Source: Methylohalomonas lacus (GTDB taxonomy: Bacteria > Pseudomonadota > Gammaproteobacteria > Methylohalomonadales > Methylohalomonadaceae). Taken from it: DNA of 64,000 bases. Numbering within the stretch: position 1 is the first letter of the stretch; every line of letters begins with the position of its first letter. The stretch covers positions 1 through 64,000 of the forward strand of contig NZ_JANUCT010000006.1 of the NCBI RefSeq assembly GCF_024808875.1, in the 5' to 3' direction. Below are positions 53,815 through 61,151 of the stretch, one piece after another. The notes beneath the pieces were generated by a model, which was not told the origin of the DNA, made no database searches, and saw only the letters and a program-made list of their open reading frames with translations. Both the position numbers and the translations under genes were made by a program.

Positions 53815-55437
53815 CTAACCATGGATTTCGGCCAGCTGCCGATACGCTTCCAAGGTCAGGAATTCCGGCAGTTCCTGCGCCGTGATCATGTGATCCAGCA
53901 ATTCCGCCGCCGCCTGGTAATGACGCCGGGCAAAAAACTGCTCGCCGTACACGATCCGGATCGACTCAATCTCGTGGGCAAGCACACGCCGGAACAGTTC
54001 CTCGTTGACCGCGCGGCTGTCTGCCAGCATGCCCTTCGGATACTGGATCCATTGCCAGACCTGGGCGCGCGCGATTTCGGCGGTCGCCGCATCCTCCATC
54101 AGATTATAGATGGGCACGGCGCCGAGACCACCGAGCCAGGCCTCAGTATAGCGCAACGCCGCGCTGACATTGCTCATCAGGCCGTGGATAGTGATCGAAC
54201 CCTCCGGCAGTCTGAGCAGATCGGCGGCGCTGACCTCAACATCATCGCGCTGCTTGCTGATCTGGTTGTCTTCCGGCATGTACTGGTTGAAGACGTCCTC
54301 GCAAATCGGCACCAGTGCCGGATGGCCCACCCAGGAGCCGTCGTGACCGTCGCGCGCCTCGCGCTCCTTGTCACGCCGCACCTTGAGCATCGCCATCTCG
54401 TTCAGGTCTGGGTCGTCGCGCACCGGCAGCTGTGCCGCCATGCCGCCCATGGCGTGCACGCCGCGCTTGTGACAGGTCTTGATCAGCAACTGCGAATAGG
54501 CGCGCATGAACGGCGTGGTCATGGTCACCTGACTGCGATCCGGCAGCACGACATTCGGGTGATTGCGGAAGCACTTGATGAAACTGAAGATGTAGTCCCA
54601 GCGGCCGCAGTTCAGGCCGGCCGAGTGCTCGCGCAGTTCGTACAGGATCTCGTCCATCTCGAAGGCGGCGAGCACGGTTTCGATCAGCACCGTGGCCTTG
54701 ATGGTGCCGCGCGGTATGGCGAGCGCATCCTGGGCATAATTGAAGACGTCGTTCCACAGCCGTGCTTCAAGGTGCGACTGCATCTTCGGCAGGTAGAAAT
54801 ACGGCCCGCTGCCGTGCTCCAGCAGCGCATGCGCGTTGTGATAGAGGTACAGACCGAAATCCCACAGACCGGCCGGCACCGGCCGGCCGTCGACGAGTAC
54901 ATGGCCTTCTTCCATGTGCCAGCCGCGCGGGCGTACCAGCAGCGTGGCCACCTGGTCGTTAAGCCTGTAGTCCTTGCCGTTGTCGGCGGTGAAGTCGATT
55001 TGACGCCGAATCGCGTCATAAAGATTGACCTGGCCATCGATCATGGCCTGCCAGGTCGGACTCGAGGCATCCTCGAAGTCGGCCATGAACAGACGCGCAC
55101 CGGAGTTCAGCGCGTTGACCACCATGCGGCGATCGACCGGGCCGGTGATCTCGACACGCCGGTCCTGCAGATCCGCAGGCAGCGGCGCGACCTGCCAGTC
55201 GGCGTTTCGAATGTCGGCCGTTGCATCGAGAAAGTCCGGCAGCTCACCGGCATCAAGCCGCGCCTGGCGCTCGTGGCGCGCCTCGAGCAACGCGTCTACG
55301 CGCGGCCGGAATTCACGCACCAGGCCTTCGACGAAGGCCAGCGCCTCCGGCGACAGAATACGCTCGTGTTCGGCGGCGGGTGCCGGTGTCAGAATTTCCA
55401 GCCCAGCCACCTTCTGCGCATGGGATGCATCATTCAT
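53815..55437 (-). CDS. aceB: Malate synthase A
   Basis: 540 aa. It condenses acetyl-CoA with glyoxylate. Conserved [58 protein letters not shown] and [10 protein letters not shown], and [17 protein letters not shown] precedes the ATG. Isocitrate lyase is not adjacent. Expression with phaEC and acs fits growth on acetate or turnover of PHB. Confidence 0.96.
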
Positions 55438-55523
55438 CGACGTTTCCTCGACAATCTAACGGTTTGTCCCGGCGCAATCCGGGATTACAAGTTGTATCTG
55501 CTGCAGTGAACCCCGCCACAGGT

Positions 55524-55557
55524 AAAAAAACCCGTACCCCTTGCGGGGAACGGGTTT
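55524..55557 (-). terminator. Intrinsic terminator after the second phasin
   Basis: Read on minus: AAACCCGTTCCCC (55557-55545), short loop, GGGGTACGGGTTT (55540-55528), then Ts to 55524. One central mismatch. It stands 35 bp after the phasin stop and also separates it from aceB. Confidence 0.9.
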
Positions 55558-55591
55558 CTTGACCGGGACACAAGGGCCAATGAAAGCTCGA

Positions 55592-55990
55592 TTAGGCAGC
55601 CTTCTTGGTGCTGCTGGTGGCCGTGGTCGTCGCCTTCTTGGCAGTCGACTTGGCGGTCTCACCAAAGCTTTCCGCGCTCTTTTCGAACCAGGCAGCGATT
55701 TCCTCGCCGGATTCGTTCAGCACTTCAGCGGTCTGCTTGCTGAGATCCATCATCTTGCTGCTATAGGTGTTAGCCAGCTCGGATTCGGCCGAGATCAGAT
55801 CCTTGTAATTGGTGGTGCTGGACAGCAGCTTGGCCTGCTCGACACCGCTTTCGATGCCCATCGTCGCCATCGAGAACTGCAGCTCGGTCAGTTTCTGCAC
55901 GGCCTTGGTGTTGATGGCACCCAGCTGCTGCAGGTTTTCGTAAGAGGCTTTGCCGGCGTTGACGAATTGTTCAAAGATATCGTTTTGCAT
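55592..55990 (-). CDS. Phasin family protein with Lys/Ala/Thr-rich tail (132 aa)
   Basis: Helical phasin domain: MQNDIFEQFVNAGKASYENLQQLGAINTKAVQKLTELQFSMATMGIESG, LISAESELANTYSSKMMDLSKQTAEVLNESGEEIAAWFEK. The last 18 residues (STAKKATTTATSSTKKAA) resemble the PAKKA-type tails of nucleoid-binding phasins such as PhaM. The start ATG at 55990 is chosen because GGAG is correctly spaced; a GTG at 55999 overlaps that ribosome site. Strong promoter and tandem dyads upstream. Confidence 0.9.
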   Translation of the reverse strand: MQNDIFEQFVNAGKASYENLQQLGAINTKAVQKLTELQFSMATMGIESGVEQAKLLSSTTNYKDLISAESELANTYSSKMMDLSKQTAEVLNESGEEIAAWFEKSAESFGETAKSTAKKATTTATSSTKKAA

Positions 55991-56040
55991 GTTACTCACT
56001 CCGTGGAATCATTCAGTTGTTCATTGCTCTACATCGAACA

Positions 56041-56096
56041 TTGTGCATTGCACAATTGCTGCATCGCACAATATAACAACCCCACCCCTCTGTCAA
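56041..56096 (-). promoter_or_regulatory. Promoter and tandem dyad operators of the second phasin
   Basis: On minus: TTGACA (56096-56091), 17-bp spacer, TATTGT (56073-56068). Overlapping and following are two dyads, TTGTGCGATGCAGCAA (56071-56056) and TTGTGCAATGCACAA (56055-56041). The second has the same TGCANTGCA core as the phaA and first phasin sites. Same promoter-operator geometry as at 39713-39768. Confidence 0.78.
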
Positions 56097-56140
56097 CAGG
56101 GTTTCGCGTAAATTATTCATGAGCGCGCCGAGCCTAAAAA

Positions 56141-56168
56141 AAACCCGTAACCGGCCGGTTACGGGTTT
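56141..56168 (-). terminator. Intrinsic terminator of ppa
   Basis: Perfect 14-bp inverted repeat AAACCCGTAACCGG/CCGGTTACGGGTTT with no loop spacer beyond the dyad centre, followed on the minus strand by eight T (56143-56136). It may also work weakly on the plus strand. Confidence 0.9.
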
Positions 56169-56198
56169 TATAAAATAACAATAAAAACAGATAGTTAA

Positions 56199-56747
56199 TC
56201 AGTAATGGGGCTTATCCGGCTCGTCCGAGTAGCGAGCCAGCGAGTCGGTGATTTCCTTGCGCGCGGCATCGATACCCTGCCAGCCCCGGATCTTGACCCA
56301 CTTGTTCGGCTCCAGGTCCTTGTAGTGCTCGAAGAAATGCGAGATCTGGTCCAGCAGCGCCGGCTGCAGGTCCTCGTGGGTATCGACGTTCTGGTGGAAC
56401 TTGGACACCTTGCTGATCGGTACGACCAGAACCTTGCTGTCGTCACCGGCCTCATCCTCCATCTCCAGCACGCCGATCGGCCGGCAGCGGATCACCGAGC
56501 CATGGATCAGCGGCATGGGCGTGGCGACGATGATGTCCACCGGGTCGCCGTCCAGCGACAGGGTCCGCGGGATATAGCCGTAGTTGCACGGATAGCGCAT
56601 GGACGTGTTGAGGAAGCGATCGACGAACATGGCGCCGGTGTCCTTGTCGAGTTCGTACTTGACCGGCTCGCTGTAGATCGGGATTTCCACAACCACGTTA
56701 ATTTCATCGGGCGGATTGTCGCCCGGTCCGACTCTGTCCAGATTCAT
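56199..56747 (-). CDS. ppa: Inorganic pyrophosphatase (family I)
   Basis: 182 aa. Hydrolyses pyrophosphate. Key motifs: NVVVEIPIYSEPVKYELDKDTGAMFVDRFL, YPCNYGYIPRTLSLDGDPVDIIV (with the catalytic Asp triad DGDPVD) and DEAGDDSKVLVVP. It lies 33 bp after acs on the same strand, so the pyrophosphate made by acetate activation would be removed by the product of the same transcript. Confidence 0.96.
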   Translation of the reverse strand: MNLDRVGPGDNPPDEINVVVEIPIYSEPVKYELDKDTGAMFVDRFLNTSMRYPCNYGYIPRTLSLDGDPVDIIVATPMPLIHGSVIRCRPIGVLEMEDEAGDDSKVLVVPISKVSKFHQNVDTHEDLQPALLDQISHFFEHYKDLEPNKWVKIRGWQGIDAARKEITDSLARYSDEPDKPHY

Positions 56748-56780: not shown

Positions 56781-58718
<1,938 letters not shown>

Positions 58719-58846
58719 AACGACCCTCCTCTTCTTCATCCAGGTCAGCTGCCGTCTTGATCATGACGAGACGGTCTATGGTATTTTTTATGTCTGGCTC
58801 CGAGACAGTCGGAGATTGACTCGAATCATATCGTAATACTGCGGTT

Positions 58847-58879
58847 AAAAAAAAAGCAGGCTGCATGCGGCAGCCTGCT
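58847..58879 (-). terminator. Strong intrinsic terminator upstream of acs
   Basis: On minus: AGCAGGCTGC (58879-58870), loop CGCAT, GCAGCCTGCT (58864-58855), then an uninterrupted run of nine T (58855-58847). It points toward acs and lies 128 bp before the acs start, so it would stop a transcript that begins further upstream unless it is read through. Confidence 0.93.
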
Positions 58880-58983
58880 ATATAGGATATGTCGCATTTG
58901 CCCGAACCATTTCCCGGTTTCCCGGAAAGGCGACATATAGCGTTGATGGCAATCAACTCGTAGTCGGTTACACACCTACGTAC
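58847..58983 (-). ncRNA. Candidate structured RNA: sigma-54-dependent sRNA or attenuated acs leader
   Basis: From the predicted start (58983) to the terminator end the minus strand is a chain of hairpins: CGTAG/CTACG (58980-58976 with 58963-58959), GTTGAT-TGCC-ATCAAC (58957-58942), a 9-bp stem ATATGTCGC/GCGACATAT (58938-58930 with 58895-58887) enclosing CCGG-GAAA-CCGG, a GNRA-type loop (58925-58914), and then the terminator. No open frame of note with a ribosome site. I do not recognise it as a known riboswitch or sRNA family. Confidence 0.55.
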
Positions 58984-58993
58984 CCGTGTCCCT

Positions 58994-59010
58994 AGCAGAT
59001 TCCGTACCAA
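58994..59010 (-). promoter_or_regulatory. Sigma-54 (-24/-12) promoter
   Basis: Minus strand TTGGTACGGAATCTGCT. Against the consensus TGGCACG-N4-TTGCW it matches at all but two positions and keeps the essential GG-N10-GC spacing. Predicted transcription start near 58983. The neighbouring gene encodes a sigma-54 activator with the GAFTGA loop. Confidence 0.75.
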
Positions 59011-59079: not shown

Positions 59080-59143
59080 GCTGTTGCATTAACTGTTGCC
59101 ATAAACTGTGGCGCCACAGTTCACTGCGGCATTATGCAACAGC
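59080..59143. promoter_or_regulatory. Nested dyads, candidate activator-binding (enhancer) site
   Basis: Inner perfect 18-bp palindrome AACTGTGGCGCCACAGTT (59104-59121); outer perfect arms GCTGTTGCAT (59080-59089) and ATGCAACAGC (59134-59143). The centre is about 129 bp upstream of the predicted sigma-54 start, a usual enhancer distance. No T-tract follows on either strand, which argues against its being only a terminator of the activator gene that ends at 59148. Confidence 0.65.
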
Positions 59144-59147
59144 CATG

Positions 59148-61151
59148 CTACAGCGGATCGTTCCAGCCACGGCGGCGGCGATAGATGGTACTGCGATCGA
59201 TGCCCAGTTTACGTGCCGCGGCGCTGACATTACCGCCGGTTTCCGCCAGCGTGCGGCGGATCAGATCATCCTCGACATGGCGCAGCTCTGCGGCGGGTTC
59301 GTCCCCGGCCAGGCGCGGCGCGGCGGCCTGCGGCACGTCGGCGTCGCTAATGCGGCCGTCACGGGCGGTCAGCAGCCAGCGAATGCACAGGTTGCGCAGT
59401 TCACGGATGTTGCCGGGCCAAGCATGGCGGCGCAGGTAGTCGCGCGCCGCCGGGCCCAGCTGCGGCGGCTGGCAGCCGGCGGCCAGGCTTTCCTTGGCAA
59501 GGAAGGATTCCGCCAGTGCAACGACGTCGTCGCCGCGTTCGCGTAGTGCCGGTACACGCACTTCCAGCACGCATAGACGGTGGTAGAGATCGAGCCGAAA
59601 ACGGCCGTTTTCCAGCGCCCGCGCCAGCTCCGGCGTCGCCGCAGCGATGATGCGTACGTCGACATGCAGCGGCTGGCTGCTGCCGAGCCGCGTGATCTCC
59701 TTGTTATCGAGCACGCGCAGGAACTTCGCCTGCAGCTCCGGATCCAGCGAGTCGATCTCGTCGAGAAACAGCGTGCCATTATGCGCCAACTCGAATTTGC
59801 CCGGCTGACCATCGCGGCGGGCGCCGGTGAACGCACCGCCGGTATAACCGAACAGCTCGCTTTCAATCAGGTCGCGCGGCAGTGCGCCGCAGTTGATAGC
59901 AATGAACGGTCCGTCGTTTCGCCCGCCCTCGGCGTGGATGGCATGCGCCAGCAGTTCCTTGCCGGTGCCGGTCTCGCCAACCAGCAGCACGCTGTTGTCG
60001 AGCGGATCGCGGGCAGCGGCGGTCGCCATCTGCAGCGCCTTGGCTATGGCCGGCGAATCGCCGAGGATGTTGTCGAAGCTGTAGCGCGACACCGCCGGCT
60101 GCGCCACGGCCGACTCACGCCGCCGGCCCGGCGCCGCGCCGATCACCAGCAGCGCGCCGAGGCAGTCATCGCCGATGGCGATCGGCTCGATCCGGCAGTG
60201 TAATGCCTGCAGGTCACCGCCCTGGCTGCGCGCGGTGACCTGCAGGTCACCGGCGCAGGCCTCGTTCAGGTGCTGCTCGATCGTCTGCCACACGCCCGGC
60301 AGGAAGCGGCTTACCGGCCGATTGAACAGCGCGATGTAGTCGCTGCCGAGGCAGCGACTGGCGCGGTTGTTGGTGTCGACGATGTCGCCGTTCATGTCGA
60401 CGACGATGACGCCATCGTCCGGCCAGCGGCTGCGCTTATCGCGGGCCAGGCCGCGCAGCAGCTCGCGCCGCTCATACAGGCGCACCGACAGCGCCGACTG
60501 CACGGTCTGGGCGATCGACACCGCCAGCACCATGGCTTCCTGCGAGATGTTCTGCACCGGCCCGGTAATGTCGACTGCGCCCAGCGGCTGGCGCCGGTTC
60601 AGCGGGTTGATGATCGGCGCGCCGTAACAGACCCAGGGCTGCCAGCCCTGACAATAATGCTCGACGCCGAGCACTACTTCCGGGCGCTGCAGCGCTAGCG
60701 GCGTGCCGATGCCATTGGGGCCGACGTCCGCTTCCAGCCAGCCGCCACCGGGGCGAAAGTTGATGCGTTCGAGGTGTTCCTGGATCTGGTCGTGACCAAC
60801 GGAATACAGGATCCGGCCCTGGTGGTCGGCCAGAACAATGACGTGGCGGGTGTCGCGCACGGTGTTCGCCAGCTCATCCAGTACCGGGCGACCGGCGCGG
60901 CCGAGGTCCTCGCGCACCAGCCAGGCCTCGATTTCCTCGTTGGAGAGGACCGTCGGCGCGCGCTCGGCGCGCGGGTTCAGGCCGATCTCGCGGCTGCGCT
61001 CCCAGCTGCGTGCGATGACGCTGCGCGGCGATTCGCCGGCAAAGCGGCCGCTGTCGACAAAGGTCTCCCAGGCGCGTGACAGCTGTTGCTGCGACACGCT
61101 CGGGATATGCGGCACACCCGGCGCCGACAGGTGGGTGTTCTGCTCGGTCAT
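59148..61151 (-). CDS. AcoR-like sigma-54-dependent Fis-family activator (667 aa)
   Basis: N-terminal GAF-type sensor (about 60-215), PAS-like region (about 235-330: VIVVDMNGDIVDTNNRASRCLG), AAA+ domain (about 355-590) with Walker A VGETGTGKELLAH, ELFGYTGGAFTGARRDG (sigma-54 contact loop) and Walker B GTLFLDEID, and a C-terminal Fis helix-turn-helix (RRTLAETGGNVSAAARKLGIDRSTIYRRR). No response-regulator receiver. The layout is that of AcoR-like activators of acetoin, alcohol or acetate metabolism. It lies next to the sigma-54 promoter and dyads above, so acs or the leader RNA is the likely target. Confidence 0.93.
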   Translation of the reverse strand: MTEQNTHLSAPGVPHIPSVSQQQLSRAWETFVDSGRFAGESPRSVIARSWERSREIGLNPRAERAPTVLSNEEIEAWLVREDLGRAGRPVLDELANTVRDTRHVIVLADHQGRILYSVGHDQIQEHLERINFRPGGGWLEADVGPNGIGTPLALQRPEVVLGVEHYCQGWQPWVCYGAPIINPLNRRQPLGAVDITGPVQNISQEAMVLAVSIAQTVQSALSVRLYERRELLRGLARDKRSRWPDDGVIVVDMNGDIVDTNNRASRCLGSDYIALFNRPVSRFLPGVWQTIEQHLNEACAGDLQVTARSQGGDLQALHCRIEPIAIGDDCLGALLVIGAAPGRRRESAVAQPAVSRYSFDNILGDSPAIAKALQMATAAARDPLDNSVLLVGETGTGKELLAHAIHAEGGRNDGPFIAINCGALPRDLIESELFGYTGGAFTGARRDGQPGKFELAHNGTLFLDEIDSLDPELQAKFLRVLDNKEITRLGSSQPLHVDVRIIAAATPELARALENGRFRLDLYHRLCVLEVRVPALRERGDDVVALAESFLAKESLAAGCQPPQLGPAARDYLRRHAWPGNIRELRNLCIRWLLTARDGRISDADVPQAAAPRLAGDEPAAELRHVEDDLIRRTLAETGGNVSAAARKLGIDRSTIYRRRRGWNDPL

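Follow-up and report, generated by a model that had tools for sequence, protein, structure and literature searches.

The acs locus and its upstream RNA

The window, that is, the whole 64,000-nt stretch of DNA that was analysed, carries on its minus strand a gene for acetyl-CoA synthetase (acs) preceded by a hairpin-rich region ending in an intrinsic terminator. The features of this part of the locus are as follows:

56781-58718, minus strand: acs, acetyl-CoA synthetase (TIGR02188 at 1055 bits, the cut-off being 725; start codon placed from the Shine-Dalgarno sequence)
58719-58846, minus strand: terminator-to-acs spacer of 128 nt, with the Shine-Dalgarno sequence AGGAGGG at 58724-58730
58847-58879, minus strand: intrinsic terminator (putative attenuator), with a 10-bp stem (58855-58864/58870-58879, 100% complementary), a 5-nt loop and nine T; -18.6 kcal/mol
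58887-58938, minus strand: large stem-loop, with a 9-bp base stem at 58887-58895/58930-58938 (ATATGTCGC/GCGACATAT)
about 58911-58928, minus strand: CCGG-GAAA-CCGG hairpin, an alternative fold inside the large stem-loop
58941-58983, minus strand: 5' leader domain with rival folds, a long imperfect hairpin (-12.7 kcal/mol) versus two short hairpins (-9.5 kcal/mol)

Past acs and in the same direction come genes for inorganic pyrophosphatase, phasin and malate synthase A (53815-56747), and terminator-like sequences follow the first two of these. This is an acetate/polyhydroxyalkanoate neighbourhood.

The 137 nt at 58847-58983 (minus strand) fold with a minimum free energy of -52.2 kcal/mol, compared with a mean of -36.2 kcal/mol for 200 dinucleotide shuffles (z -4.3), none of which was as good, and the strength of the terminator was matched by 0 of 500 shuffles of the 266-nt leader. 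An earlier sequence-only reading of this DNA had reported stacked hairpins, a 9-bp stem and a terminator with a 10-bp stem and nine T, all of which are present, as well as an acs start 128 nt past the T-run, which is borne out with the ATG at 58718 as the likely start. Regarding the GNRA-type CCGG-GAAA-CCGG loop that it had set in a 9-bp stem, the sequence and the stem do exist, but the hairpin is a competing local structure (about -10 kcal/mol in a 24-nt piece) that does not belong to the minimum-energy fold. The element is single-copy within its own genome, and nucleotide searches of this genome and 56 relatives returned, outside the element itself, only matches of chance size. For the read-through RNA (58719-58855), base-pairing is predicted between the U-run of the terminator and the purine-rich region around the acs Shine-Dalgarno sequence, and a similar U-run/Shine-Dalgarno pairing is predicted at one of the related loci described below (L216).

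A sigma-54 promoter and its probable activator

Upstream of the folded region, the following features were identified:

58983, minus strand: predicted +1, lying 12 nt beyond the C in the GC of the -12 element
58994-59009, minus strand: sigma-54 promoter (-24/-12), TGGTACG-GAAT-CTGCT (TGGTACGGAATCTGCT), an exact consensus match
59080-59143, no strand assigned: candidate activator-binding dyads, inverted repeats with arms GCTGTTGCAT/ATGCAACAGC at 59080-59089 and 59134-59143
59104-59121, no strand assigned: central 18-bp palindrome AACTGTGGCGCCACAGTT, within the preceding dyad
59148-61151, minus strand: sigma-54 activator gene (GAF, weak PAS, AAA+ and Fis-type HTH; Pfam Sigma54_activat 1.5e-61, HTH_8 2.9e-12, GAF 4.5e-6)

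The promoter, which had gone unmentioned in the sequence-only reading, is the single exact match to the sigma-54 consensus in the 64-kb window, where 0.16 would be expected, and the joint presence of the GG-N10-GC consensus and of candidate upstream activator sites argues for its assignment as a sigma-54 promoter. With the usual sigma-54 geometry, the start is predicted exactly at the first base of the folded RNA, which lends indirect support to the earlier proposal that the region is transcribed as one RNA. Among the surveyed acs regions, the highest sigma-54 scores are those of the activator-linked loci; L215 is comparable, but a different activator is encoded there. No credible sigma-70 promoter was recognised in the spacer between terminator and acs (the best match reaches 8/12, with a 15-nt spacer), where promoters of unknown types could hide, nor does it contain a GG-N10-GC motif and hence a recognisable second sigma-54 promoter.

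The activator, which passes no NCBIfam equivalog cut-off, is the probable regulator of the acs leader, and the dyads next to its gene probably bind it, as judged from their sequence. Dyads resembling activator sites follow the activator gene in the window and in the three related activator-acs loci described below, with TGTTGCA-N3-TGCAACA or TGTCGCA-N3-TGCGACA standing right after the gene in the relatives. In a maximum-likelihood tree, a 12-row clade (support 100/99) contains all acs-linked activator orthologues and leaves out the AcoR-like and NtrC-like paralogues, L209 being basal as drawn. NtrC-like activators beside acs (L137, L164, L192, L194, L215 and L230) had been early candidates; L137, L192 and L215 fall outside the clade in the tree, and the hairpin at L230 was set aside, as it follows an activator of NtrC-like type, judged by its C-terminal sequence.

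The clade also has members reduced to a GAF/PAS region and a Fis HTH, which lie immediately upstream of acs in L160, L206 and L210, two of these AAA+-less genes overlapping acs or nearly so. The acs upstream regions of these three loci showed no sigma-54 promoter and no terminator, and such homologues probably act without sigma-54. At L269 (3441-4947), an activator orthologue precedes a dehydrogenase of the PQQ-dependent methanol/ethanol family. This dehydrogenase has a sigma-54 promoter of its own (TGGTATACCTCCTGCA), and its leader, 182 nt long and rich in hairpins, contains no terminator by the scoring used for acs leaders. As the clade thus includes acs-linked members together with the PQQ dehydrogenase neighbour of L269, membership suggests a role in regulating ethanol/acetate oxidation. 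Elsewhere, AAA+-less homologues precede genes of the type associated with PQQ alcohol dehydrogenases (L044, 3941-7124, and L272; TIGR03863 partial, TIGR03866), and at L114 (3469-3485; G119) a perfect TGTTGCATAATGCAACA dyad comes after the activator, with an rRNA operon behind it in place of acs.

The same gene order in distant relatives

Since the window genome is the sole member of its order in the genome set searched, a comparison with distant relatives was needed, and these were found by activator searches and with a covariance model built from the window RNA alone. Four distinct activator-acs loci were obtained, namely the window, L209 (the same as L129; genome G008), L216 (G301) and L034 (the same as L115), two of them from one genus: L034 and L115 are probably one species, their intergenic sequences looking alike, and L216 shares its genus with L115. 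The orders of G008 and G197 are represented by one and three genomes, respectively. The window-only model recovered the L129 element, located between activator and acs; its three further matches (L126-L128) consisted essentially of a terminator and weak stems away from acs and activator, and were treated as chance.

All four loci with an AAA+-bearing clade member before acs are arranged as activator, sigma-54 promoter, terminator and acs, a consensus sigma-54 promoter being found 5' of acs in L209, L216 and L034 as well. In these three relatives, the T-run ends at most about 30 nt from the acs ATG, and in L209 the hairpin GCAGGCCGC-ATCTA-GCGGCCTGC-GTTTTTTT directly adjoins the Shine-Dalgarno sequence AGGAGG. 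This leaves no space for a further promoter, so that in L209, L216 and L034 transcription can reach acs only by passing the terminator.

This geometry bears on the idea that the window encodes a small RNA of about 137 nt that stands alone, depends on sigma-54 and, under control of the activator, would act on other messages; acs itself would then rely on leaky read-through or on a downstream promoter that escaped recognition. Such an RNA would suit the discrete and highly structured transcript with its strong terminator and nine-U tail, the 128-nt gap that separates this terminator from acs, and the precedent of sigma-54-controlled small RNAs beside activator genes (CrcZ/CbrB). It is nevertheless unlikely in our estimation: in the three relatives the terminator lies so close to the acs ribosome-binding site that the transcript has to enter acs, no sequence conserved across the leaders is fit to serve as a seed, and no promoter is seen downstream of the window terminator. 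A stand-alone small RNA is possible in the window genome but cannot fully explain the relatives, as far as sequence comparison goes.

What is shared among the leaders is the terminator. Those of the window and L209/L129 have eight identical stem pairs and one compensatory difference (U-A/C-G, stem pair 8), and in L216 and L034, within one genus, a terminator-like hairpin is kept despite a changed sequence. The L034 terminator is weaker (-10.3 kcal/mol, with an A interrupting the T-run), and the whole leader of this locus folds no better than its shuffles (z -0.5). The multi-hairpin stretch of about 104 nt ahead of the terminator was seen in the window genome only and has no counterpart in the relatives. 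Covariation in the stem at the base of the large stem-loop, which had been proposed as a check on the RNA, found no footing, as this stem was not found in any relative examined.

These observations also weigh upon a metabolite riboswitch on acs. The compact, structured leader before the window terminator and the two competing folds of its 5' domain would fit such a sensor. We nonetheless hold it to be highly improbable: consistent with the earlier remark that the RNA matches no riboswitch class recognisable by eye, Rfam gave no match at gathering thresholds (the best permissive E values, 0.7-0.8, fall below gathering scores and are not credible), no conserved aptamer emerged, the window-only covariance model finding no homologue of these hairpins in 369 genomes, and the terminator is preceded in L209 and L216 by a mere 26-36 nt or so, into which most aptamers would not fit.

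How unusual a terminator is at this position was assessed with about 110 acs upstream regions sampled across a set of 369 gammaproteobacterial genomes, terminators being scored within 265 nt of acs. At -10 kcal/mol or below, a terminator is present in 4/4 activator-linked leaders and in 4 of the 106 other acs regions (Fisher 1.2e-5); at -15 kcal/mol or below, the counts are 3/4 and 0/106. Both sets of figures are to be read with the knowledge that the member set was partly found with a terminator-containing model (L209 only), that thresholds were viewed once members were known, that L216 and L034 are congeneric and that the 106 comparison regions are not fully independent.

Probable attenuation of acs and its possible switching

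Taken together, we consider it fairly likely, on the basis of sequence, that the element is the 5' leader of a sigma-54-driven acs mRNA with an attenuator terminator. Of the options left open by the sequence-only reading (attenuator, riboswitch or small RNA), an attenuator on acs is the best supported, the riboswitch has no positive support and the small RNA is possible in this genome. The attenuator is favoured because the order of promoter, terminator and acs recurs in three distant loci without space for a second promoter; indeed, an intrinsic terminator lies between promoter and start codon in the window and in three relatives. According to this model, the neighbouring GAF-AAA+-HTH activator would bind and switch on the sigma-54 promoter, and transcription would start at 58983, making the leader of the acs mRNA. 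By default, most polymerases would stop at 58847, releasing an RNA of about 137 nt, and only those reading through the terminator would yield acs mRNA. acs would hence be under double control, at initiation by the activator and sigma-54 and at elongation by the terminator. Read-through might depend on a protein that binds the RNA, on a metabolite, on an effect of ribosomes or simply on leakiness.

Concerning the switch, no antiterminator of comparable strength was found in the window, the best alternative being about 10 kcal/mol worse; it pairs AUGCG (58893-58897) with the terminator loop CGCAU (58865-58869) and is favoured only at an RNA length of about 120 nt. In L209, inspection shows a possible pairing between the 5' arm of the terminator and the first hairpin's 3' arm. 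No switching scheme common to the four leaders was found. Tandem ANTAR hairpins (A1/G4 hexaloops, C:G closed) do not occur as a pair in any of the four leaders, with one weak candidate hairpin each in the window and L034 and zero in L209 and L216. As for a leader peptide, AUG-initiated ORFs differ among the four leaders, with none in L034 and no good Shine-Dalgarno sequence, and CsrA-type GGA motifs were rejected as inconsistent across them.

It is in this context that an unregulated terminator has to be weighed. It might stop transcription of the activator gene from running on and have no more than a damping effect on acs, or it might act as a stabilising hairpin at the 5' end. The lack of a strong antiterminator and the differing leader architectures speak for it, as does the position of the terminator between activator gene and acs in 4/4 loci, no separate terminator being seen for the activator gene. 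An insulator would, however, be expected upstream of the sigma-54 promoter, whereas the downstream position also halts the wanted transcript, and the AAA+-less homologues directly before acs have no terminator; we therefore regard this explanation as distinctly doubtful.

Returning to attenuation, a more specific version is a new class of regulated antitermination on a sigma-54 acs leader, in which 58880-58983 would sense the acetate or energy state via a metabolite or an RNA-binding protein; this we put forward tentatively, as unlikely. The 104 nt before the window terminator, having no counterpart in the relatives, may have a lineage-specific function as a sensor or small RNA.

Comparison with known systems

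Acs is the high-affinity entry point of acetate, spending two ATP equivalents per acetate, and the control of acs transcription has been described mainly at promoters. If true, a conserved promoter-proximal terminator would add an elongation checkpoint to a sigma-54-driven acs unit, join two control modes rarely reported together and bring to light an activator clade, so far without a name, that is linked with acs and with a PQQ alcohol dehydrogenase; this suggests a second, previously undescribed checkpoint on acetate use. The attenuation reading predicts both a terminated RNA of about 137 nt and acs read-through. In the open-access literature searched, no acs attenuator was found.

Among known systems, CrbS/CrbR control acs in Pseudomonas and Vibrio through a two-component regulator whose target is a predicted RpoD promoter carrying an ACTU motif (PMC5715377). 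The likeness lies in the transcriptional activation of acs during acetate use; the window differs in having a one-component sigma-54 activator and a leader terminator. Sigma-54 activators of the AcoR/DhaR type share the GAF-PAS-AAA+-Fis HTH layout, whereas the window activator belongs to a separate, well-supported clade tied to acs or PQQ alcohol dehydrogenase and reaches no NCBIfam equivalog cut-off.

CrcZ of Pseudomonas is a structured, terminated, sigma-54-dependent RNA of carbon metabolism, controlled by CbrB and encoded beside the activator gene. CbrAB has been mentioned together with crcZ/crcY (PMC5715377). The window resembles this system in its structured, terminated RNA with a sigma-54 promoter beside a sigma-54 activator gene in carbon metabolism, but its RNA has no Rfam match at the gathering threshold, acs lies next to it in the same orientation, and the relatives force read-through into this gene.

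Finally, the nasF promoter is also sigma-54-dependent. In the leader of the Klebsiella oxytoca nasF operon, the ANTAR protein NasR mediates antitermination at an intrinsic terminator, read-through being the regulated step (PMC7496416). While gene and signal differ and its ANTAR RNA target motif is missing in the acs leaders, nasF/NasR is the system closest in logic, with likewise a structured metabolic-operon leader and an intrinsic terminator before the first gene.
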